Origin: a virus
DNA length: 33,980 nucleotides
Direction: 5' to 3' (one strand)
Virus record (IMG/VR): IMGVR_UViG_3300009079_000062
Coordinates: 1 to 33,980 of that record
Shown here: one piece after another, positions 1,992 through 19,333 of the stretch
How positions within the stretch are numbered: the stretch's first letter is position 1
Layout: every line of letters begins with the position of its first letter
Made by a program: the position numbers and the translations under genes
Notes under the pieces: generated by a model
Database searches by the model: none
The model's input: only the letters and a program-made list of their open reading frames with translations
Told to the model about the DNA's origin: nothing

Positions 1992-2831
1992 TTAGAATCC
2001 TAATCTATTTAGGCTCTTGCCTAGAGTGCTTATTGACTCCGAAGTACCGCTTATTCCGCCCTGAGCTGCATCAATAGACTTAATGCCTTTCAAGCCGTTA
2101 ACATTAGCTTTCAAATTTCTCGCATTTTGTCTGTTAGTATTGAAACTATTTACTGCTTTATTCAATGTAGAAAACTCTCCATTTAAATCGGAAAGAAATC
2201 CAAATATACCGCCAAATCGACCGCCTGCTAATCCGTTTAATGCGCTAGGAACATTAACTATCGGTGGTGGTGTATTTTTAAAATCTCCAGCAGCAAACTC
2301 GAATCTATCATAAGCAAAAGAAACTTGGAACTTACCAATAGTATTTTCATTAGCATTAGACAGCTGTATATCTCCAACACTAATCGGGTATGCATTTATT
2401 AGGTTTATTTTGTATACGTTATTATCATTTATATCCTGACCATAAATCTGGATATCTGCAACGAAATTCTTTTTATATTGTGCTACAAAACCATCGGGTT
2501 GAAGGATAGATTCAATCCAATTATCCATAACTAACTTTGGGTAGTAATCTCCAGAGAGATTAAATTCCATTACTACATCTTCATCGATATAGGTATATGG
2601 TATTTTCTTAGTCTGAGTCCCATTGGTATATTCGTTTGTAGACAAAGCACGGCTGGGTAAAGTTACAGACTCGCAAAGCATATTTATTTGCTCTAAACTG
2701 TACCCACTAATAATTTGACTGCTGACTAATGGCGGTAAATTTACATCAACACGGTATCTGTTTGACTTAGCATAACCTTTCCGTGCTACCACCATGCCTA
2801 ATTGTTTATCAAAATTTAGATAATCTGCCAT
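1992..2831 (-). CDS. 54: Baseplate tail-tube junction protein gp54
   Basis: This 279-aa protein has the tail-tube fold pattern. It contains CESVTLPSRAL and TKKIPYTYIDEDV in the N-terminal half, FNLSGDYYPKLVMDNWIESI in the middle, and INAYPISVGDIQLSN followed by GKFQVSFAYDRFEF. The last part closely resembles the T4 gp54 region ISVSAPELSY...FDVTFAY. The C-terminal 80 residues are Asn/Gly/Ser-rich and look flexible. gp54 sits with gp48 on top of the hub and starts tube polymerisation. Its ATG overlaps the stop of the 197-aa gene (TAATG). gp19 (tail tube, about 163 aa in T4) has the same fold, but the length and place favour gp54. Confidence 0.75.
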   Translation of the reverse strand: MADYLNFDKQLGMVVARKGYAKSNRYRVDVNLPPLVSSQIISGYSLEQINMLCESVTLPSRALSTNEYTNGTQTKKIPYTYIDEDVVMEFNLSGDYYPKLVMDNWIESILQPDGFVAQYKKNFVADIQIYGQDINDNNVYKINLINAYPISVGDIQLSNANENTIGKFQVSFAYDRFEFAAGDFKNTPPPIVNVPSALNGLAGGRFGGIFGFLSDLNGEFSTLNKAVNSFNTNRQNARNLKANVNGLKGIKSIDAAQGGISGTSESISTLGKSLNRLGF

Positions 2832-3424
2832 TAGCTACTAAACGACCTCTTAGATTCTCCCCAAACACGGGATTTACTTTGTTTACGGAATTGCTCTGTG
2901 GGTAAGAATACTGCGATCTCCCACTCAGGTGGGTCAACACGAACAATCCTTGAGTCTACATGTTTTGTCAAGTAATGCTTAAAACAAGGTTTAAATTCTC
3001 TATACTTTTTAGCACCTTGTAACATATTATAGGTTAATTTTAATCTGGTCGTCTCATCGTTATTTTTATTATTTTGTAGCGCCATTAATTTATCTAAGAA
3101 TCTTGCCCTTACCATTGGAGATAGGTAGTGTAGGTTCAACCCATAGAACCCTCCAGGAGCAGGACTTATCATAATGGTCAAAGGAAACGCATCATAGTAA
3201 GGTAACGTCTCACGATACTTTGGATCGTAGAAGAACATAAACATCTTACCAGTAACAAATCTCTTTTGCGTATCCAGTAAAGGATCTTTTAAAATCTGTT
3301 GTCGGTTTACTTTACCCATCTGTTGAATTTTTTGACGAAACCACTTACGTGATTCATCTGTTCGTGGAGTTACTCCCGCACGAAACGCTTGTGATTCTAA
3401 GTTTTGAAACAATGATTCAGCCAT
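2831..3424 (-). CDS. Conserved T4-like virion or assembly protein, 197 aa
   Basis: I recognise this as a family common in marine T4-like phages but cannot name its role firmly. Visible features are a charged helical N-terminus, FVTGKMFMFFYDPKYRETLP followed by YYDAFPLTIMI, GFYGLNLHYLSP, and a basic C-terminal half with KHVDSRIVRVDPPEWEIAVF and an Arg/Ser-rich tail. It lies between gp4 and gp54. In T4 the gene beside gp4 is gp2, the DNA end protector, so a head/neck or DNA-end role is possible but unproven. A perfect late promoter TATAAATA lies only 5 nt before its ATG, and there is no recognisable ribosome site. Confidence 0.65.
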   Translation of the reverse strand: MAESLFQNLESQAFRAGVTPRTDESRKWFRQKIQQMGKVNRQQILKDPLLDTQKRFVTGKMFMFFYDPKYRETLPYYDAFPLTIMISPAPGGFYGLNLHYLSPMVRARFLDKLMALQNNKNNDETTRLKLTYNMLQGAKKYREFKPCFKHYLTKHVDSRIVRVDPPEWEIAVFLPTEQFRKQSKSRVWGESKRSFSS

Positions 3425-3429
3425 AGCAC

Positions 3430-3504: not shown

Positions 3505-3978
3505 CTATTTTTTCTTCTTACGCTTTACCTTTCCGCCAAGTATCTTTATCCCAATACCCTTTAATACATCCTCTGTCCATATTTGGAATATGCATCCATT
3601 GTCCTGAGCAAACTCTGTGGCAGCTTTCCATTTAGAAGTGTTCTTGATGTAGGTCAATGATTCTGTGATGAAACGTTTTGTTTGGCGTTGACCTTTTTTG
3701 GGCGGTACTGTCTGCGACTTTGGTTTAATCTCTATCAGATACTTCTTGCCATCTGCGGTCTTAAAATACATGTCTATATAGTATCGGTGGACTTTATTAT
3801 CTGTAGCGCAAACATAGGGAATGACGACTTCCTCCGATCCCCACTCGAGGATAGCAGGGTTATCATCTGCCCATCTGAACGTTTGCCTCTCCCAGAGAGA
3901 ACGATAAACGATATTTTTTACATCACCCACGTATTTACTCTTATTTTTGGGTGTGTATTTTCCTTTGTATGTTTTCAT
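3505..3978 (-). CDS. 4: Head completion protein gp4
   Basis: At 157 aa it is near T4 gp4 (150 aa). It shows the family's nuclease-like core: Glu30 in YRSLWERQTF, Asp69 in HRYYIDMYF, and Glu83/Lys85 in KKYLIEIKPK. This is the spacing of TnsA-type PD-(D/E)xK nucleases, to which gp4 is related. The product is very basic and ends in a Lys/Arg-rich tail. In T4, gp4 with gp50 completes the packaged head before tail joining. Here the gene is the first of the minus-strand run, divergent from gp48. Its ATG at 3978-3976 overlaps a plus-strand late promoter by one base. Confidence 0.88.
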   Translation of the reverse strand: MKTYKGKYTPKNKSKYVGDVKNIVYRSLWERQTFRWADDNPAILEWGSEEVVIPYVCATDNKVHRYYIDMYFKTADGKKYLIEIKPKSQTVPPKKGQRQTKRFITESLTYIKNTSKWKAATEFAQDNGCIFQIWTEDVLKGIGIKILGGKVKRKKKK

Positions 3979-8883: not shown

Positions 8884-9078
8884 ATGCATGAGTTTGTCAT
8901 ATTATTGAATGGAGAGAAAAGGGTGTATAATAAGTTTGAAGATATACCCATGAAGTTTGACAATTTATTAAAGTTTAAACCTGTTCATATTCCTGGACCG
9001 CATACCGAGGAAGAGCATGAGATAAACTCTCAATGGACAGATAAATTACTAGAACTAATGAAAAGGGAGACACGATAA
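8884..9078 (+). CDS. Small conserved protein, 64 aa
   Basis: The product opens with a beta-hairpin-like segment (FVILLNGEKRVYNKFEDIP), has a proline/histidine centre (HIPGPHTEEEHE), and ends in a helix with WTDKLLELMKRE. It lies between the cadherin-like gene and PAAR, and its stop overlaps the PAAR start (TAATG). No function is recognised. The compact coupling with spike genes suggests a co-expressed assembly helper. Confidence 0.6.
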   Translation: MHEFVILLNGEKRVYNKFEDIPMKFDNLLKFKPVHIPGPHTEEEHEINSQWTDKLLELMKRETR

Positions 9079-9362
9079 TGCCAGCAGTAGCAAGAATCGG
9101 AGACGCAAACGCAGATCATTGTTCGCCTATGGTACAGGCTGCAGGAAGTGGTAATGTATTCTGTAATGGCAGAGGAATTTCAAGATCTGGAGATGCTAAT
9201 ACTCCACATGACCTTCCAGGATCTCCATGTCCTGGGCACAATACCCCAATAGGTTCTGGGTCTGGTTCTGTGTACGTTAATGGTAAGCAATGCGGTAGAG
9301 TTGGAGACCCAACCTGCACAGCAGTTGCCGCAGGAAGTCCAAATGTTTTCGCTGGGGGCTGA
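9078..9362 (+). CDS. PAAR-domain spike tip protein
   Basis: At 94 aa it is a complete PAAR protein: ARIGDANADHCSPMV at the start, SGNVFCNGRGISRSGD in the middle, GSGSVYVNGKQCGRVGDP, and a Gly-rich end with GSPNVFAGG. Conserved His and Cys residues (His18, Cys19, His44, His54, Cys67, Cys75) are candidates for the zinc site at the tip. PAAR proteins sharpen the trimeric spike of contractile tails; T4 gp5.4 is the counterpart. It is encoded downstream of gp5, consistent with pairing to it. Confidence 0.9.
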   Translation: MPAVARIGDANADHCSPMVQAAGSGNVFCNGRGISRSGDANTPHDLPGSPCPGHNTPIGSGSGSVYVNGKQCGRVGDPTCTAVAAGSPNVFAGG

Positions 9363-9370
9363 TAAACCAG

Positions 9371-9378
9371 TATAAATA
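9371..9378 (+). promoter_or_regulatory. T4-type late promoter upstream of gp25
   Basis: An exact TATAAATA sits in the 21-nt gap between PAAR and gp25, ending 5 nt before the gp25 ATG at 9384. There is no ribosome site in the gap. The spacing to the start codon is the same as at 3430-3437. Confidence 0.7.
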
Positions 9379-9383
9379 AACGT

Positions 9384-9827
9384 ATGAGCACAGAACTAAT
9401 TTCAGATAAAAACCTTCGGGATACCAGATCTAAGATCACTGGTACTACTAGGCAATACAGAGACCTTTCTTTGGGGTTCAGGGCGCACCCTGAGTATGGC
9501 GATATATCGCCTGTTAAAGATTTAGAGGCAATCAAAAACTCTATTAGAAATATCTTAAAAACGAATCGTGGAGAGAAACCATTTAATCCCAAATTTGGTT
9601 GTGGTCTGAAAAACTATTTGTTCGAACCAGCGGACGGAATTACAAAAGCATCTATACGTGACGAGATAATGTATTCTCTTGGAATTCAAGAGCCCAGAGT
9701 TCAAGTAACTGATGTTGCTATTGAAGATTATCCAGACAAGAACGCATATGCAATTACTATATTCACCACCGTAGTGAATACGCAACAGCAATTTGACCTA
9801 CAACTACTATTAAAGAGATTAAGGTAA
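9384..9827 (+). CDS. 25: Baseplate wedge protein gp25
   Basis: At 147 aa it is close to T4 gp25 (132 aa) and belongs to the GPW/gp25 family. Typical features are YRDLSLGFRAHPEYGD, then DLEAIKNSIRNILKTNRGEK and FNPKFGCGLKNYLFEP, and a QEPRV segment (the conserved Glu-Pro-Arg) before the final strands. gp25 links the wedges to the inner baseplate and helps trigger sheath assembly. No Shine-Dalgarno sequence is visible. Its stop overlaps the gp6 start. Confidence 0.92.
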   Translation: MSTELISDKNLRDTRSKITGTTRQYRDLSLGFRAHPEYGDISPVKDLEAIKNSIRNILKTNRGEKPFNPKFGCGLKNYLFEPADGITKASIRDEIMYSLGIQEPRVQVTDVAIEDYPDKNAYAITIFTTVVNTQQQFDLQLLLKRLR

Positions 9828-11662
9828 TGTCGCAAACAGACCTAACAAAGCTAGACTTTGATCAGATAAAAGATTCTATCAAAGAATTTCTAAAGAGCCA
9901 AGACGAATTCACAGATTACGATTTTGAAGGTTCTGGTCTGAATGTGTTGATGGATGTACTAGCTTACAACACGCATTATAATGCGTTACTAGCACATATG
10001 ACTCTTAATGAGTCTGACCTTGCTACCGCTCAAGTTAGGTCTAATGTGGTTTCACGTGCTCAGTCTTTGGGTTATATTCCAAAATCTAAAAAGTCTTCTA
10101 GTGCGATCATAGATATCACAGTTACAGGTGCCGCAGATAGCCCAAATAGGATTACGCTGAAGCGTGGATACAAGGTAAGTGGTAAAATTAATAACAAGAC
10201 ATATTACTTTGTAGTTCTGTCTGACGCAACAGCTGTGAAGTTATCTAACAACACCTATAAGTTTACTAATATTCCAGTGTATCAAGGTGCGTTAAAAACA
10301 GAAACTTATCGTGTTGATGGATTATCGCCATTCCAAAGGTTTGAGATATCTTCTGAAGCTGTAGATACTGAAACGCTATCAGTTTCTATAACCGAAACTG
10401 ATAATCAGCTTGCTGGAGAATCGTATGCTTATTATGAAAAAATAAACGATACCAAATCAACTTCTAAAGTTTTCTTCTTTAACGAGAACAATTTCGGGAG
10501 ATACGAGTTATATTTCGGGGACAATTTCTTAGGTCGTAGACCGACAAGTGGCTCTAAAGTAACTGTAGAATATCTTGTTACGGATGGACCAGAATCGAAT
10601 GGTATAACTACGTTTGCTTCAGCTGGTTCTATAGAAGGATTGCCTTCAATATCAGTTTCTTTAGCTGAAGGTCATCTGAGATCTAATGGTGGTACTGATA
10701 AAGAAACTGTTGACTCTATCAGGTTCAATGCTCCGATTAACTATGCAACTCAAGACCGTGCCGTAACTGCTGATGATTATCGTTCTTTGCTTATTCGCCA
10801 GTTCACAGACATTCAAGATATATCGGTGTGGGGCGGTGAGGACAATGATCCTCCAATTTATGGTAAGGTGTTTGTAGCAGTTGCGCTCAAGGATCAAGAA
10901 AGGGTTACAGAAACATTTATTAATTCTGTAAAATTGTTCTTAAAAGATAAAAATGTTGGTGCTATTACTCCAGATATAGTTGAAGCCGAATATACTAATA
11001 TAGCGTTGGAAGTAGATTTTAAATATGATAGTAACAAGTCTAAACTTACGGCAGGGCAAATAGAATCTAAGGTTTCTGACACAGTAGTAAAATATAATAA
11101 TGATACCTTACAAACATTCAATGGTGTCTTCCGTATGTCCAATCTCCTCAAGTTGATTGATGAGTCAGACCCTGGAATTATCAACTCGGTTGTAAGAACA
11201 AAAATGTATAAAAGATTCAGACCATTCCCATTGAAAGCTGAAGACTATACAATCACATTCCCAAATGCTCTTTATATATCTACAACCAACGAATCCACTA
11301 TCAATTCTTCAGTATTCTTACTAGATGGTATTGAGTGTAGGTTCCAAGACGAGCCGATAGGAGCGTCAACAACAAGAAGAATCTTTGTTATCAATCACGC
11401 AACTAGTGAAAAAATTACCAAGTATTCTGATGTTGGGCTTATTAATCCAACAAAGGGTACTGTATACATAAAGAACATAAAATTCGATTTATCCAACTTT
11501 GTTACAATTTTCGCTAAACCAGACAGCTTCGACATCAGTCCTAAATATAAGCAATTGTTGAATATACCAAGCGCAACAATTGATATTGGGTCAGAGTTAG
11601 ATACTGTTTCGCTACTAGGATCTACTGGGCTATCAAGTTATCAAACGTTTACGAGACACTAA
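9827..11662 (+). CDS. 6: Baseplate wedge protein gp6
   Basis: The 611-aa product is near T4 gp6 (660 aa). The N-terminus carries the family signature LDFDQIKDSIKEFLKSQ, then DYDFEGSGLNVLMDVLAYNT and HMTLNESDLATAQVRSNVVS. The middle has the J-like baseplate segment NYATQDRAVTADDYRSLL, and GKVFVAVALKD follows. gp6 forms the ring that joins neighbouring wedges. The gene starts on the gp25 stop (TAATG) and is followed at once by the gp7-like gene. No anomaly was seen. Confidence 0.92.
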   Translation: MSQTDLTKLDFDQIKDSIKEFLKSQDEFTDYDFEGSGLNVLMDVLAYNTHYNALLAHMTLNESDLATAQVRSNVVSRAQSLGYIPKSKKSSSAIIDITVTGAADSPNRITLKRGYKVSGKINNKTYYFVVLSDATAVKLSNNTYKFTNIPVYQGALKTETYRVDGLSPFQRFEISSEAVDTETLSVSITETDNQLAGESYAYYEKINDTKSTSKVFFFNENNFGRYELYFGDNFLGRRPTSGSKVTVEYLVTDGPESNGITTFASAGSIEGLPSISVSLAEGHLRSNGGTDKETVDSIRFNAPINYATQDRAVTADDYRSLLIRQFTDIQDISVWGGEDNDPPIYGKVFVAVALKDQERVTETFINSVKLFLKDKNVGAITPDIVEAEYTNIALEVDFKYDSNKSKLTAGQIESKVSDTVVKYNNDTLQTFNGVFRMSNLLKLIDESDPGIINSVVRTKMYKRFRPFPLKAEDYTITFPNALYISTTNESTINSSVFLLDGIECRFQDEPIGASTTRRIFVINHATSEKITKYSDVGLINPTKGTVYIKNIKFDLSNFVTIFAKPDSFDISPKYKQLLNIPSATIDIGSELDTVSLLGSTGLSSYQTFTRH

Positions 11663-14600
11663 ATGTCAAACAAAGAAATTACAAGAGTTCCTGAGATACT
11701 ACCAGATAATTTGGCAGCAGAGTCTGCAGAATTTGTCACATTCCTTAAGAAGTATTACGAATGGATGGGTCAGAAAGGCAACCCTTCCGAAGGTATTGAC
11801 CTAGCATTAAAGCAGAGAACCCTTGACAATGCTGTCGACTTCTATTTAAGTTCTCTGTACAGCGAGCTTGGGTATGGGTTTGTTCTTAATAACCAAGCCA
11901 ACCAAAAGAATATAATCGATAATCTTGCTGAAATTTATTCGGCAAAGGGTTCTTTACAGTCCATCAAGGTTATGTTCAGAGCGTTATTTGGTGAAGAGAT
12001 TGACATCAAATTACCCAAAGAACAAATTCTCAAATCATCTTCTGGTAATTGGCTCAGCGAATATTCGGTAATTGTAGAATTAAATGAAGGAGATTTATTT
12101 ACAACTGTTGGTAAATATGTAGAAGTAGAAACTTCATTCCCCAATACCCCTAAACAAACATTTGATGTCGAAGTTAAGCGGATAGAAAAGCGAGAGGGTT
12201 CTAACGTTTACGAAGTCTACGTTTCTCGATATTTTGCTGGCTTCTTCTATTTTGATAGTGTTATCTATTACGGAGATGTTAAGGCAACGTTAAAGTCTTC
12301 AATGTCTCAAATTTTAAATATCGAGGATAGCGGTACAGGGTTTAGAGTAGGCGAAACCTTTGTTATTGCAGATTTTGTAAGAGAATCTGGATTTAATGAT
12401 CTAGCGAGATTACCAAAATCCTTTAGAAGAAAAGTCCCCTCTCTATCTAAAACAAAAAGAATTGACCTTGAGGATGTCGATGTAGACGTTCGTTCTGATG
12501 GTACTATAACACGAATTATAAAACTTGAGGATACGATTACCACCCAAGTGATTCGTGGGTCTACCATGATTACTCGTGTAGAAAGAAACGGTAAAGTGAA
12601 AGAATTCACTTCCACTATCGATGGTATCCCTACACCAAATCTAGCAATCAACTGGGATGAAATCTCTAAGGCTCTTATCGAGATCGCTTCTTTTGGCGGT
12701 ACTAATGGTAGCATCCCTCTCGAATTATACAGTTTCCTGCAAGAAGTTCCCCAGCCAACATATAGTGACGGCACTACAGACCCATTATTCGATACGAATG
12801 TTGGGGCAACTCAATATAAGAGAGGGGACTGGGATAGAGATGGCGAAATCTCTATTGACGATTCAATGGCGATACTTAGGTATGTATTTGACGTTGATCC
12901 TGGACTTAATCCTGCCACAGAAGCTGTAGAAGAAATCAGATATCAAAGGATAACTGAGGTTATATCTGAGTGGAACGCATACGCAACCCGAGAGAATATG
13001 GGGGCTGAAAAAACCTTTGCGTTGCGTAGTCCAGCTACATCTGGTGACGCATGGGATCCTACTTATTACCTTCCGGTAGACGTGGGATCTGACCTTGTAA
13101 GATTATCTGTTGGCGCTGACCCAGCTGAATTTACAAGCGCATTATTGCAGTTAAATGCGGAAGCTGGTAGCACTGGCTTCAAAAAAGGGGACATCGATCA
13201 AGATGGAGAAATTGATACCGATGACCTATTGGCATTAGTTACATATCAAGACCCTTCACTTAGAAATGCTAATCCATTACCAGCTCAGTTAGACTCGACT
13301 AAGATTGCTTGGATACAGCAATACCTTGATACTGGTTCGGTAGAAGATCTTGCGCTTATGGTTTCTGCCATGGCATACAAGTATAATGCTGATAAAAGGA
13401 ACGACCTACACGAATTTTTACTACAAGTAGATGGCGATTATGCTACTGGTCGTGTTCGTGGAGATATTGATCAGTCTGGTCTTATTACGTTAGATGATGT
13501 CTCTATTTTATTGAGACGTGCTGCTGGTTACTATGATGTTCCTAGCGGTGGCATTCAGTCTGTAAACGTAAATACTCTAGTCGGTGGCTATGACTCTTCT
13601 GAAGGAAGTATTACTTTAACTAATACTATAAATGGTTCTGGTGCCGATATAGCTCCTAATGTTAGGGATGGTGTTATAACTAAATTCAACCTTACCAATC
13701 CAGGATTTGGTATTAGGGAAGCTGTTGCGATTCTTTTAAAACCCAGAGACGCAATTATCGAAAATATACCTGATGATTGGAGATTTGTAGATAACGCATT
13801 TGCTGATGGTTCTGGAGTCTATGAAGTAAAGTTAGATATTGTCGACGGTAAGATAAATAACTTATATTCCCCAGGAATAATGTACAACTTCCCTGAAGAC
13901 CCTATTGATTCAGTTCAGGCTTCATACGACAATGCTACCATTGCACCTATCCTACAAAATAGCGGTATTATTGGACGTACCAATAATGCGCCTGCAGATG
14001 GTAGTAGAGCTGAAGGTGTTTATGAAATCACTTCTAGCGATTATACCACAAATAGTGCTAGTGGTACAGGTGCTGAATTTAAAATTAGAGTACGTGAAGG
14101 TGGCGGTGCGGGTGTTAATGCTTCTGTTTCTTATGACGAAGCTAACACCTTAGACGCAAGTAGGACTGAAGGTGTTTATGATATTTTCTCTGGATATACT
14201 ACTGACGGAAGTGGTACTGGCGCAGGATTTAGAGTTAGTGTATTTGATACTGGTCGTACGATAATTTTTACTCTCCGTCAAGGTACTGGCTATGTGGTCG
14301 GAGAAACGATAACCATACCTGATTCTTTATTAGGCAGTGGCGGTGCAGCTGCACTAACTTTTGATATTGGTTCTATAAAAACTTACGATACCCTGATTTC
14401 TGTTGTAGATGGCGGTACTGGCTATTTGGCTGGCGAAACATTCACAGTAGCCGACTCAAATTTAGGTGGCGGTGGGGCACCTGCTCTAACATTTGCAATT
14501 GCCGATATTGCCGACTCCAATACTATAACAGGGTTTAACATAATAAGCGGTGGTACAGGGTACGACATTGCTGCAGCGACAGTTGAGGTTACTGATGGAA

Positions 14601-17600
14601 CTGGAGAAGGAATAATCTTCCCCACTAACCCTGTTGGGGTTAGGAATGGAGTTATTGATAAGATTTCTCTCGTGTCTGGGGGTAGTGGATATGAATTAGC
14701 CACTACTACAATATCTGTAACAAGGAATAGTGTTCCTATCACAGGCGCAACTTTGACCCCAGTTATAAACTCCTCTGGTGCTATAACAGATATCACCATT
14801 GAAGATGGGGGCGAAGGGTATAACCCAGATATTGATATCATTACAATTGCTTCTTCTGGTAGCGGTCAAGGTGCGAATGCTAGTGAGTTCCAGATAATAG
14901 ATGGCGTTGTTGACGCAATTTCAATATCTAATAATGGGGGTGGCTATAGTAGCAGAGCAACTGCAGTAATCAAGAGAGGTAACTCTAGTTCTGATCCTTC
15001 AATAGAAGCTATAGTTCAAGATGGAGTTCTCACTACAGTTACTGTAAATAAGCAAGGAATAAATTATAATCCAGCATCAACAGTATCAAATACTTTATCA
15101 AGAGTTGAGCCATCATTACAAGCGGTGTTAGATTCTAATGGTTCTATCACTGATATCATATCTGTAGGAGATAATTCGGATAGATCTTTATCTGGTTGGC
15201 AATCAGCCACTGTCTCAATTACAGAAGAACATGTATTCAAAATGACCATAGGGCAGCATTTAGGTAATCTGAATTATGTGTTTTTTGAATCTACAGACAG
15301 AAACGGTGATGTTGACGATACCACGGATCCAACGATTAATATATCTTTGGGCGATACAGTAAAGTTTGACTTGGATTATGCCGATACAAATACCGTTAAT
15401 GAATTTTATATTAAGACCTCGCAGGCTTCAGGCACTACAGATGCCATAACAGATTCTACGGTTACTGGTCGAGGGACAGAAACTGTAACATTTACTCCGA
15501 CAAGTGTTGGCACGTACTACTATCAATCTTCTGTGCACAGTAATATGAGTGGAGAAATAGTAGTATCTAACAATGGAGCATCATTCTCGGCTGATATAGA
15601 TGACGGTAAAATATCTCAGTTTTTGAAAATTGGCGGTGGTTCTAATTACGGCAACCCCATTGTTACACTAACAGGCACTAGATTAAATTCAAATATTACC
15701 ATAACTACAACGCCCGATTATGTTGAGTGGATCGATGAGGTTATCGGGGAGCCGTTGTTAGGTAGTGAATACAATCCGTTATTGATTGACGGTCCAGGAA
15801 CTGGTGCTAATGCTCGTGTTACGAAAGTCGGTAATAATGGACAACTTCAAGAACTTAAATTAACTTCTTTTGGTTTTGATTATCCTGATACATTCACCAC
15901 TACTATCTCCCCCGAGAATCCAGCAGGAACTACTGCTAAAGTTACTTTAGCATCTAGTGTTGTTGGTGTAACTTCTCCGAAATATGTTGACCGTAAAGGT
16001 TTCTTATCGGATATTATCAAGATACAAGATAATGACTTGTATCAAGAGTTCTCGTATGTTATTCAGACTGGTGTTGATTTTGACATATTTGAAGATCTGA
16101 TTAAGAAATCTGTCCACCCAGCAGGTATGAAGATATTTGGTGAGCAAAATATCAACGAGAGTTTTGCTTTACAAGTTACTCAGTTTGACTATACCTCCTC
16201 TCTGTATAATAAATTAGTTTTTGACAGAACAGATAACGACGAACTAAATCCAGGTGGTGATGGTACTTCTACCCGCAATGATGATGTCGATACCTACCAT
16301 TTAGACAAGGATATGGGACTTTTATCTGGTTATGAGGAAGAAACTGATCTAGCAGATGAAGATAATGATACTTATTTAATAATAAAAAATCTAACAGTCC
16401 CTGAGTATGCAGAAATTGCTTATGTTGAACATGATAAAGAAGATTACCATTTCGATAAAGATATGGGTCTTACGTCTGGATACGCAGAGATAACTGACTT
16501 CGCCGACAAAGACGACGATACCTACCATTTAGACAAGGATATGGGTCTTACGTCTGGATACGCAGAGATAACTGATCTAGCAGATGCAGATAATGACACT
16601 TATCACTTTGATAAAGATATGGGTCTAGATTCTGAATATTATGAAGAAACTACGTTGGCAGATGAAGATAATGATACCTACCATTTAGACAAAGACATGG
16701 GTATCTTATCTGGCTATGAGGAAATAACTGACCTTTCTGACGATGAGAATAGGTATCACTTCGACAAAGACATGGGTATCTTATCTGGTTATGAGGAAAT
16801 AACTGACTTTAAAGATAAAGATACTGACACTTACCATTTCGATAAAGATATGGGGATTGATTCTGGTCTTGAGGAAGTAATAGATTTATCGGGTGATGAT
16901 GCCCATACCTATCACTTTGACAAGGATATGGGGATTGATTCTGGGCATGAGGAAATAATAGATTTATCGGACGATGATGTTGACACTTATCGCTTCGATA
17001 AAGATATGGGTCTTTTATCTGGTTATGAGGAAATAACTGATCTAGCAGATGGAGATAATGACACTTATCACTTCGATAAAGATATGGGTCTTTTATCTGG
17101 TTATTACGAAGAAACCGATCTAGCTGACAATGAGAATAGGTATCACTTCGATAAAGACATGGGGATTGATTCTGGTCTTGAGGAAGTAACTGACCTAGCG
17201 GATGAAGATAATGATACCTACCATTTAGACAAGGATATGGGTCTTTTGTCTGGTCATGAGGAAGAAACTGATCTAGCAGATGAAGACACTGACACCTACC
17301 ATTTAGACAAGGATATGGGGCTAGAGTCTGATTATTATGAAGAAACTGACCTTAAAGATAAAGACACTGACACCTACCATTTCGACAAAGACATGGGGCT
17401 TTTATCTGGTTATGAGGAAATAACTGATCTAGCAGATGAAGACTTACATATCTTTTCATTCGGCAAACAGTTTCCAAGATCAGATGACCTTGAAGAATTG
17501 ACTGCAGACGCAAGTGACGAACGTCAACCTTTCGATATAGGTAAAGCACTAATTGATACACCCGACCCTGACGATACTCAATTTATCTTCGATCACAGTA

Positions 17601-19333
17601 AAAGTGGCACCGCATTTGACGATGGCACTCAAGAAATCTTTTCTTTGGTTAGCGTGATTAATGAAAAATTCTTTAATGACGATGATTCTCAAGAATTTGC
17701 TTACGTTACCCATACTAAAGAACTCGTTGCATACGAGAAAGACATGGGGCTTTTATCTGGTTATGAGGAAATAACTGATTTATCGGATGAAGATGTCGTC
17801 AGAAAATTGTTTGAAAAAGCCACGATTAATGAGACTTTAGAACACAATGTATCTGAATCTCACGGATTATTATTTTCAAAGCCAAGATCGTCTTCTATTA
17901 GCGATGTTAATGATGCTATAACTATTTCTAGGAATAAGTATCTTCAGGATACTGCAACTGTAGACGATGTATTCTCTACAATAGATGAAGACATCTATTC
18001 GTTTACAAAAGATTTATCGGATCTATTAGATCCACCTGTTACAGACTCAGATAGTTACAGCTTATCTAAAGCACTTTTAGACACTTTAATTTTTGGTGTT
18101 TCGGAAGATTGCGCAAAGGGTATATTCAAGTCTAGAATAACTTCTTCAACTGATTTTGAGTCAAACCCAGATGTCCAAAGAAATGCCATATCAAAGCCCA
18201 TATTGGACTTAACAGACTTCAAAGATAAAGACGTTATCAGGTCTAAGGATAGCACTAAAAGTTTAAGCGATCTTTTACAATTCGGTGCTTCTGATGATGG
18301 ATCTATTTTCTCCTTTATAAAGAGTCCGCAATCTTCAGTAGGTACTTCGTCCGATTTAGACTCGAGGTATTCTTTTGAACATCCTGAAGAAGAGACCACC
18401 GCTATATCCTCTGTAGAGGGGGGTCCTATTGAAATATATGGCGTTTTTGATATGCAGCATTCATATTATAACTCAGTACCCACACATAGCTTGAGATGGA
18501 TAGAACCAGCCGCTATTGACAATGTACATGGCAGGAATGGTGGGAATAGAATTGTAGATTTTAACGATCTTGCTTTCCAATTTAATTCTAACAAAGATCG
18601 AGATGACACAATAATACAAAGTGGATCATCTACGTTTAAATATAGGTTCTATGGAAAATCACATAATGATGATGATGATAGAACAGTTCATGTCAATTCT
18701 ATGATTAAAGCCTATATAGGCGACACAATAAAATTAGAATATAATACTTACGGTTTCAGTTCAGCATCTCCAGCTGGGGGCTTTTGGATAAAAACTTCTC
18801 CAACAGCAGATAAGGTTACAGATATTGCTACAGATGATGGTATAACTAATCAGGGCATGACTAGCCACAATGGTTTTGTTACAAATAATCAGACCCTAAC
18901 TTGGGATACTACTAACGCAACACCTGGAAGATACTACTTAATTTCTGGCGGTGAGACTGTGACCTCGAATGATCTTGATGGCGCTCATGATGATTCGTAT
19001 TTTATAATAGATGTAGTCGATTACTCGAGCGAGCAAGAAGAACTAGGTTTTGATGTTGAGAAGCCACTTGAAGATACTATTATAGATATAAGTGATTTAG
19101 GCGTACAAGACTTGTTACTCGACAAACGTCTTGATGACTCTGCTCTTGCAACAGATATATATTCTGTTCAAGACAATGATATTTATAGTATAAATAAAGG
19201 TATCCAAGAATTCTCAATCACTAGTAGTGAAAGTGGGAGTTTAACGATAACTAAACCCTATGTTGAATTAGGATATATAGCAGGGGGTTTAGACTACGAG
19301 TATTGTTCCGATATTGCGGAACGACAATTTTAA
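11663..19333 (+). CDS. 7: Giant gp7-like baseplate wedge protein with fibre-like extension
   Basis: The 2556-aa product is about 2.5 times T4 gp7 (1032 aa). Residues 1-170 match marine gp7: RVPEILPDNLAAESAEFVTF, FLKKYYEWMGQKGNPS and YSAKGSLQSIKVMFRALFGE. Three dockerin-type loops follow near 389, 510 and 601. Gly-rich GSGY repeats run about 690-1190, with a duplicated EGVYEI/EGVYDI unit. A cupredoxin-like domain lies at about 1190-1300, an Asp-rich 26-residue array at 1545-1929, degenerate repeats and one displaced copy to about 2240, a second cupredoxin-like domain at about 2255-2452, and a short repeat tail. The frame is open throughout. gp7 is at the baseplate edge, so the extension may project outward; this is inference. 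The start directly follows the gp6 stop. Confidence 0.8.
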   Translation: MSNKEITRVPEILPDNLAAESAEFVTFLKKYYEWMGQKGNPSEGIDLALKQRTLDNAVDFYLSSLYSELGYGFVLNNQANQKNIIDNLAEIYSAKGSLQSIKVMFRALFGEEIDIKLPKEQILKSSSGNWLSEYSVIVELNEGDLFTTVGKYVEVETSFPNTPKQTFDVEVKRIEKREGSNVYEVYVSRYFAGFFYFDSVIYYGDVKATLKSSMSQILNIEDSGTGFRVGETFVIADFVRESGFNDLARLPKSFRRKVPSLSKTKRIDLEDVDVDVRSDGTITRIIKLEDTITTQVIRGSTMITRVERNGKVKEFTSTIDGIPTPNLAINWDEISKALIEIASFGGTNGSIPLELYSFLQEVPQPTYSDGTTDPLFDTNVGATQYKRGDWDRDGEISIDDSMAILRYVFDVDPGLNPATEAVEEIRYQRITEVISEWNAYATRENMGAEKTFALRSPATSGDAWDPTYYLPVDVGSDLVRLSVGADPAEFTSALLQLNAEAGSTGFKKGDIDQDGEIDTDDLLALVTYQDPSLRNANPLPAQLDSTKIAWIQQYLDTGSVEDLALMVSAMAYKYNADKRNDLHEFLLQVDGDYATGRVRGDIDQSGLITLDDVSILLRRAAGYYDVPSGGIQSVNVNTLVGGYDSSEGSITLTNTINGSGADIAPNVRDGVITKFNLTNPGFGIREAVAILLKPRDAIIENIPDDWRFVDNAFADGSGVYEVKLDIVDGKINNLYSPGIMYNFPEDPIDSVQASYDNATIAPILQNSGIIGRTNNAPADGSRAEGVYEITSSDYTTNSASGTGAEFKIRVREGGGAGVNASVSYDEANTLDASRTEGVYDIFSGYTTDGSGTGAGFRVSVFDTGRTIIFTLRQGTGYVVGETITIPDSLLGSGGAAALTFDIGSIKTYDTLISVVDGGTGYLAGETFTVADSNLGGGGAPALTFAIADIADSNTITGFNIISGGTGYDIAAATVEVTDGTGEGIIFPTNPVGVRNGVIDKISLVSGGSGYELATTTISVTRNSVPITGATLTPVINSSGAITDITIEDGGEGYNPDIDIITIASSGSGQGANASEFQIIDGVVDAISISNNGGGYSSRATAVIKRGNSSSDPSIEAIVQDGVLTTVTVNKQGINYNPASTVSNTLSRVEPSLQAVLDSNGSITDIISVGDNSDRSLSGWQSATVSITEEHVFKMTIGQHLGNLNYVFFESTDRNGDVDDTTDPTINISLGDTVKFDLDYADTNTVNEFYIKTSQASGTTDAITDSTVTGRGTETVTFTPTSVGTYYYQSSVHSNMSGEIVVSNNGASFSADIDDGKISQFLKIGGGSNYGNPIVTLTGTRLNSNITITTTPDYVEWIDEVIGEPLLGSEYNPLLIDGPGTGANARVTKVGNNGQLQELKLTSFGFDYPDTFTTTISPENPAGTTAKVTLASSVVGVTSPKYVDRKGFLSDIIKIQDNDLYQEFSYVIQTGVDFDIFEDLIKKSVHPAGMKIFGEQNINESFALQVTQFDYTSSLYNKLVFDRTDNDELNPGGDGTSTRNDDVDTYHLDKDMGLLSGYEEETDLADEDNDTYLIIKNLTVPEYAEIAYVEHDKEDYHFDKDMGLTSGYAEITDFADKDDDTYHLDKDMGLTSGYAEITDLADADNDTYHFDKDMGLDSEYYEETTLADEDNDTYHLDKDMGILSGYEEITDLSDDENRYHFDKDMGILSGYEEITDFKDKDTDTYHFDKDMGIDSGLEEVIDLSGDDAHTYHFDKDMGIDSGHEEIIDLSDDDVDTYRFDKDMGLLSGYEEITDLADGDNDTYHFDKDMGLLSGYYEETDLADNENRYHFDKDMGIDSGLEEVTDLADEDNDTYHLDKDMGLLSGHEEETDLADEDTDTYHLDKDMGLESDYYEETDLKDKDTDTYHFDKDMGLLSGYEEITDLADEDLHIFSFGKQFPRSDDLEELTADASDERQPFDIGKALIDTPDPDDTQFIFDHSKSGTAFDDGTQEIFSLVSVINEKFFNDDDSQEFAYVTHTKELVAYEKDMGLLSGYEEITDLSDEDVVRKLFEKATINETLEHNVSESHGLLFSKPRSSSISDVNDAITISRNKYLQDTATVDDVFSTIDEDIYSFTKDLSDLLDPPVTDSDSYSLSKALLDTLIFGVSEDCAKGIFKSRITSSTDFESNPDVQRNAISKPILDLTDFKDKDVIRSKDSTKSLSDLLQFGASDDGSIFSFIKSPQSSVGTSSDLDSRYSFEHPEEETTAISSVEGGPIEIYGVFDMQHSYYNSVPTHSLRWIEPAAIDNVHGRNGGNRIVDFNDLAFQFNSNKDRDDTIIQSGSSTFKYRFYGKSHNDDDDRTVHVNSMIKAYIGDTIKLEYNTYGFSSASPAGGFWIKTSPTADKVTDIATDDGITNQGMTSHNGFVTNNQTLTWDTTNATPGRYYLISGGETVTSNDLDGAHDDSYFIIDVVDYSSEQEELGFDVEKPLEDTIIDISDLGVQDLLLDKRLDDSALATDIYSVQDNDIYSINKGIQEFSITSSESGSLTITKPYVELGYIAGGLDYEYCSDIAERQF
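12827..13530 (+). other. Three dockerin-type calcium-loop modules in gp7-like protein
   Basis: Three segments share the dockerin type I pattern of a GD start, Asp-rich loop and LLxY-type helix: GDWDRDGEISIDDSMAILRY (Asp at residue 389), GDIDQDGEIDTDDLLALVTY (residue 510) and GDIDQSGLITLDDVSILLRR (residue 601). Each keeps Asp at loop positions 1, 3 and 12 or nearby. They are about 120 and 90 residues apart rather than paired within 25 residues as in a classical dockerin. Calcium binding is inferred. Confidence 0.7.
16295..17449 (+). repeat. Tandem array of fourteen 75-78-nt in-frame repeats
   Basis: The DNA encodes fourteen units of 26 (eleven) or 25 (three) residues with the core DKDMG, followed by LLSGYEEITDLADEDNDT or close variants. 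One divergent 24-residue unit lies between units 1 and 2. Together they fill residues 1545-1929 of the gp7-like protein exactly. The variants (LLSGY, ILSGY, LTSGYA, IDSGLE; endings NDT or ENR) are shuffled along the array, and neighbouring units share identical stretches of about 38 nt, a sign of recent duplication and recombination. The units are strongly acidic. Confidence 0.9.
17738..17779 (+). repeat. Displaced copy of the 78-nt repeat core
   Basis: These 42 bases are identical to 17387-17428 in the last unit of the array, although about 310 nt of much more divergent sequence lie between. The copy is in frame and encodes KDMGLLSGYEEITD. Confidence 0.85.
19189..19196 (+). promoter_or_regulatory. 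Candidate internal late promoter
   Basis: An exact TATAAATA lies inside the 3' end of the gp7-like gene, 162 nt before the ATG of the 190-aa virion protein. It could give that gene extra late transcription. As it is within coding sequence (codons for Ser-Ile-Asn-Lys region) a chance match is possible. Confidence 0.4.
19305..19322 (+). terminator. Possible weak terminator hairpin at gp7-like end
   Basis: GTTCCG and CGGAAC form a 6-bp stem with a 6-nt loop at the last codons of the gp7-like gene. A T-rich stretch (ATTTTAAATTTTAATTT) follows, starting about 5 nt after the stem. The T run is broken by A residues, so read-through is likely. Confidence 0.3.

Follow-up and report, generated by a model that had tools for sequence, protein, structure and literature searches.

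Late promoter boxes five nucleotides before the start codons of gene 25 and gene 2 suggest leaderless late messages in a marine T4-like phage

Introduction

How is a gene translated when a late promoter takes up the place of its ribosome-binding site? The question is raised by gp25 in a stretch of viral DNA of 33,980 nucleotides (the window, meaning the whole stretch analysed). A T4-type late promoter box, TATAAATA, precedes this gene with a gap of exactly 5 nt before the ATG. An earlier note on this DNA had reported this gap together with a second case on the opposite strand, which is gene 2, and had read the two as a deliberate class of leaderless late genes. The features concerned are as follows.

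9371..9378, plus strand: late promoter box TATAAATA (T4 type) before gp25, at -13 to -6 in T4 numbering (PMC2988020, PMC7892883)
9379..9383, plus strand: 5-nt stretch AACGT, -5 to -1, with a pyrimidine at -1
9384..9827, plus strand: gp25, baseplate wedge subunit, ATG at 9384 (phrog_261, 3.5e-42); start kept in relatives
9078..9362, plus strand: PAAR-motif gene directly 5' of gp25 (phrog_281, 2.1e-21)
9827..11662, plus strand: gp6, baseplate wedge (phrog_219, 1.3e-162)
3437-3430, minus strand: late promoter box TATAAATA (T4 type) before gene 2, a perfect octamer
3425..3429, minus strand: 5-nt stretch GTGCT before gene 2, with a pyrimidine at -1
2831..3424, minus strand: gene 2, DNA end protector, ATG at 3424 (phrog_429, 4.7e-55); predicted leaderless

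Results

Two gene starts in the window carry a late box in place of a ribosome site

Both arrangements are exact at the coordinates given above. The gene caller places the gene 2 start of the window wrongly, and homology was used to fix it. Neither gp25 nor gene 2 has a Shine-Dalgarno (SD)-like motif at the usual place, which confirms what the earlier note had said of gp25. Its remark that most neighbours have a ribosome site or are coupled also holds, as an SD-like motif precedes roughly two thirds of the remaining genes in the window, and most of those without one abut or overlap the preceding gene. Because the box fills positions -13 to -6, the normal place of the SD sequence, the promoter would in effect replace the ribosome site. 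In the predicted gp25 mRNA, nucleotides 1-29 are unpaired. Upstream, the PAAR gene ends with TGA and then TAA, 21 nt ahead of the gp25 ATG; downstream, the ATG of gp6 overlaps the gp25 stop, and gp6 is likely co-transcribed and translationally coupled with gp25.

The octamer occurs 7 times in the whole window against 4.7 expected, and this unremarkable count is uninformative as evidence. The position of the octamer was different from expectation. It stands exactly 5 nt before 2 of the 24 gene starts, and when the bases upstream of the genes were shuffled 20,000 times, no shuffle gave two such starts and 83 gave one, in line with the earlier suggestion that chance is made less likely.

Two other places in the window were recorded. 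A pair of TATAAATA octamers on opposite strands lies face to face, 1 base apart, at 19180-19196, inside the 3' end of an ORF of 2556 amino acids; these are possibly divergent late promoters, or a chance occurrence. The ORF itself (11663-19333, plus strand) contains many DKDMGLLSGYEEITDLADEDNDTYHF-like repeats and dockerin-like DxDxDG segments, and is a candidate for length variation among relatives. Gene 4 (head closure; 3505-3978, minus strand) is without an SD-like site and has AATAAATA 27 nt upstream.

The same phage in a longer contig

The gp25 region of the window is identical to that of a 120-kb IMG/VR contig, G001, which contains exactly two spacing-5 cases, gp25 and gene 2. The other late promoters of this contig lie mostly 12-70 nt 5' of their genes. 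As read from the contig, the predicted leaderless class is small in the window's own phage, comprising two genes. The earlier note had named a lack of further cases in the genome as a refutation; further cases are indeed lacking in the 120-kb contig, but they occur in the relatives described below. G001 encodes the late sigma factor gp55 (phrog_234, 4e-51) and the clamp gp45 (tblastn, 45% identity, 6e-59). The co-activator gp33 gave no tblastn match in G001, the gene being short and fast-evolving and the contig maybe incomplete. Ribosomal protein bS21 was not detected in this contig.

Spacing at gene 2 and gene 25 across relatives

Using the gene 2 alignment, 80 IMG/VR loci were collected for gene 2, and the distance from the box NATAAATA to the ATG was recorded in each. 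For gp25 the alignment proved too divergent as the starting point of a scan, and a second set of 80 IMG/VR loci was obtained with HTVC008M gp25 as the query. The gene 2 spacing was 5 nt in 52 loci, 6 nt in 12, and 4, 7 or 8 nt in 6; the box was 15 or 21 nt away in 4 and absent in 6. For gp25 every one of the 80 loci has a box 5-9 nt before the ATG (5 nt in 36, 6 in 20, 7 in 3, 8 in 19 and 9 in 2), although the loci in both sets come from related contigs and the counts are not independent. The exact spacing is retained over large distances. It is 5 at both genes in G006, a diverged relative with 49% identical gp25, and also in the Pelagibacter phage HTVC008M, whose gp25 and gene 2 proteins share no more than about 35-38% identity with their counterparts in the window. 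Gene 2 of Melnitz has a spacing of 5 as well.

The spacing-5 architecture is not obligatory, since parts of the two families have the box at 6-9 nt, or at 15-21 nt with an SD-like site. The gene 2 loci with the box at 15-21 nt contain SD-like sequences, and some of the box-less loci abut an upstream stop codon, a pattern compatible with different ways of initiating the same gene once the promoter has shifted away. One gp25 subgroup with spacing 8 (e.g., L172, within L122-L201) reads TATAAATATTAGTGTT-ATG. In this subgroup a purine often stands at the sixth base past the box, so a leader of about 3 nt is predicted for it.

Size and distribution of the class in whole genomes

Whole genomes were examined for genes in which NATAAATA precedes an in-frame ATG by exactly 5 nt. 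There were 9 in HTVC008M, 8 in G011 and 7 in Mosig; 2 each in Melnitz, G001 and P-SSM4; 1 in C48C1; and none in syn9, T4 and phiM12. The spacings 3, 4 and 6 gave zero sites in the HTVC008M, G011 and Mosig genomes, and when these three were pooled, 24 of the 56 sites within 24 nt were at exactly 5 (P=3.5e-19, an indicative value because the genomes are related). The nine class starts of HTVC008M match the deposited annotation; among them are those of gene 2, gp25, gp48, csgF, a tape measure, a baseplate wedge initiator and a 2OG oxygenase. ATG is the start codon of all 31 in-frame class members, and none uses GTG or TTG. In pattern scans across the whole sequence collection, among the matches listed, spacing 5 led into an ORF of at least 60 aa in 100/118 and spacing 6 in 30/79, the value for a random ATG being about 20%.

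These genome counts indicate that the class is characteristic of SAR11 phages and their relatives and is weak or absent in cyanophages and T4. Cyanophages were considered as sharers of the class and rejected: no gene of syn9 is a case, S-CAM1 gave no raw match at all, and the raw matches of S-PM2 and P-SSM2 are close to their control levels. The raw count of P-SSM4 equals its control, yet both hits (172869-172883 and 107304-107318) open genes, one of them behind a terminator, and a weak presence of the class in cyanophages is possible. In HTVC008M (7562; L017) and G011 (124525) the curli pore gene csgF starts 5 nt past a late box; it may be expressed late in these phages, from a leaderless message.

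bS21 is encoded by HTVC008M, G011, Mosig and Melnitz, and by most of the SAR11-infecting T4-like lineage. Its correlation with the size of the class is suggestive only. Phage bS21 is not needed for the class, as the window phage has two cases on a contig where the protein was not found.

The T4 register predicts +1 on the start codon

T4 late boxes are numbered from -13 (PMC2988020), and in the gp55 structure pockets hold A-12, A-9 and A-8 (PMC7892883). With the box at -13 to -6 and its last A at -6, the A of the ATG falls on +1 when the spacing is 5. Among the gp55 residues that read the bases, N13, L54, Y97 and T99 are retained in HTVC008M and G001.

As an independent check, the initiator was tabulated at ordinary late promoters, i.e., those distant from start codons, with short-spaced ATGs excluded. 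Among the 73 promoters of the pelagi/methylophage set, 73% have A and none has C at the sixth base past the box; among the 37 of G001 and C48C1, 68% have A there. The pyrimidine-purine step is at its maximum at bases 5-6. Of 60 unique spacing-5 sequences of gene 2 and gene 25, 59 have a pyrimidine directly before the ATG, and more widely this is so in 26/28 class members versus 345/782 other genes (Fisher 1.4e-7). From the T4 register and these base-6 initiator signals, a transcription start on the start codons of gp25 and gene 2 is predicted.

Terminators and the source of the message

Of 66 gene 2 loci, 19 have a strong rho-independent terminator whose end lies 6-27 nt 5' of the box. Terminators are placed likewise at several other class members, in HTVC008M (6280, 75559), G011 (46808), Mosig (24964, 106670) and P-SSM4 (172881). 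Where a terminator lies just 5' of the box, the box should be the main source of message for that gene. Ahead of gp25, no terminator was found in any of 44 loci. Since gp25 lies inside a same-strand operon without a terminator, it could also be translated from longer messages, and leaderless and read-through messages of gp25 possibly occur together.

This operon context favours the strongest rival explanation, in which the box acts as a genuine late promoter within the operon and feeds mainly gp6 onward, gp25 itself being reached by reinitiation after the PAAR stop, which is only 21 nt upstream, and the 5-nt gap being a matter of packing. We regard this as unlikely. Packing leaves unexplained why the genome-wide spike is at exactly 5 with nothing at 3, 4 or 6, and why a pyrimidine stands at -1; moreover, the identical spacing is found in genes behind a terminator.

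The start codons are predictions, and a mis-started gene, which would really begin at a codon further downstream behind an ordinary leader and ribosome site, has to be weighed as well. This is very improbable. Homology of gene 2 reaches the first residues in most of the 80 loci and the ATG stays put; close gp25 relatives align from residue 1; no other in-frame ATG occurs in the first 80 codons of gp25; and the HTVC008M deposited annotation has identical starts. That an A/T-rich octamer fell near two ATGs by accident has in its favour that the window as a whole shows no excess of the octamer, but with no shuffle reproducing the two starts and a peak at exactly 5 kept down to 35-38% protein identity, this idea has practically nothing left and is already refuted by the comparative counts.

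Discussion

The reading that we prefer is that gp55-dependent late promoters generate leaderless mRNAs, with gp25 and gene 2 as members of the class. We consider it quite probable, on the strength of the conserved exact-5 spacing, the genome-wide spike, the match to the T4 +1, the initiator signal and some upstream terminators. The deliberate class proposed in the earlier note is thus supported by sequence comparison, and it is the comparative evidence that carries the claim; two cases alone would be thin.

In the proposed mechanism, TATAAATA at 9371-9378 would be read by the phage gp55 with the sliding clamp gp45. Transcription would begin on the A of the gp25 start codon and give an mRNA without a leader, and ribosomes would engage its 5'-terminal AUG instead of a Shine-Dalgarno sequence. 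Gene 2 appears to be built in the same manner, with a late box, +1 on the AUG and a leaderless message. Such a class, two genes here and 7-9 per SAR11-type T4-like genome, would exist beside ordinary late promoters located mostly 12-70 nt upstream. Observed directly are the boxes, their spacing and its conservation, the initiator signals, the terminators, and genes for gp55 and gp45; the position of the RNA 5' end and the leaderless initiation are the parts of this mechanism that we infer for gp25 and gene 2. More tentatively, and as a possibility rather than an expectation, the SAR11 T4-like lineage may have merged the late promoter with the start codon in a defined group of virion genes. A phage sigma factor would then govern their translation initiation too, and late in infection their leaderless messages would be used by 70S or modified ribosomes, perhaps helped by bS21.

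Should the messages lack a leader, translation initiation of key virion genes would be set directly by a T4-type sigma factor in SAR11-infecting T4-like phages and their relatives, a lineage very abundant in the ocean. The prediction is sharp for named genes, a 5' end on the A of the AUG, and is testable in cultured phages. The spacing rule also aids the choice of gene starts and the prediction of promoters in marine phage genomes. In a survey of pelagimyophage genomes, late-promoter prediction was unsuccessful (PMC7029224), and the location of many of these promoters directly against the start codon may partly explain why they are hard to find. The Melnitz paper lists late promoters, and in the part available to us the spacing is unremarked (PMC9004378). 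No report of leaderless genes in T4-like phages, cyanophages or pelagiphages was found in the searchable literature, which mostly excludes subscription journals, and priority is unproven.

Several known systems can be compared. With the T4 late promoters (gp55/gp33/gp45), the boxes described here have in common the sequence TATAAATA, a gp55 with largely conserved base-reading residues, the presence of gp45 and the predicted distance to +1. However, in the T4 and syn9 genomes no late promoter is 5 nt from a start codon, and theirs are mostly 20-40 nt upstream. Bacterial leaderless mRNAs, as in mycobacteria (PMC4633059), share the fixed distance from box to AUG, the lack of an SD sequence and, by prediction here, the AUG at +1, whereas here the transcripts are predicted, in T4-like phages, and a phage late sigma factor would drive them.

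Gene 25 of T4 itself has an odd initiation region without a well-placed SD. Its ribosome site is split, a distant SD being brought near by a hairpin, and this arrangement is lacking in distant phages (PMC3014915). In contrast to T4 gene 25, with its SD about 27 nt upstream and the hairpin, the window gp25 has a late promoter; neither a well-placed SD nor a terminator-like hairpin was found before its ATG. The nearest parallels are the pelagimyophages HTVC008M and Mosig and the methylophage Melnitz. HTVC008M and Mosig carry 7-9 such genes, the window phage two; bS21 is encoded by all three relatives and was not detected in the contig of the window phage, and gene 25 of Melnitz has an SD-led start that differs from the window gp25. 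The architecture of gene 2 is nevertheless the same in all three phages, and that of gene 25 likewise in HTVC008M.
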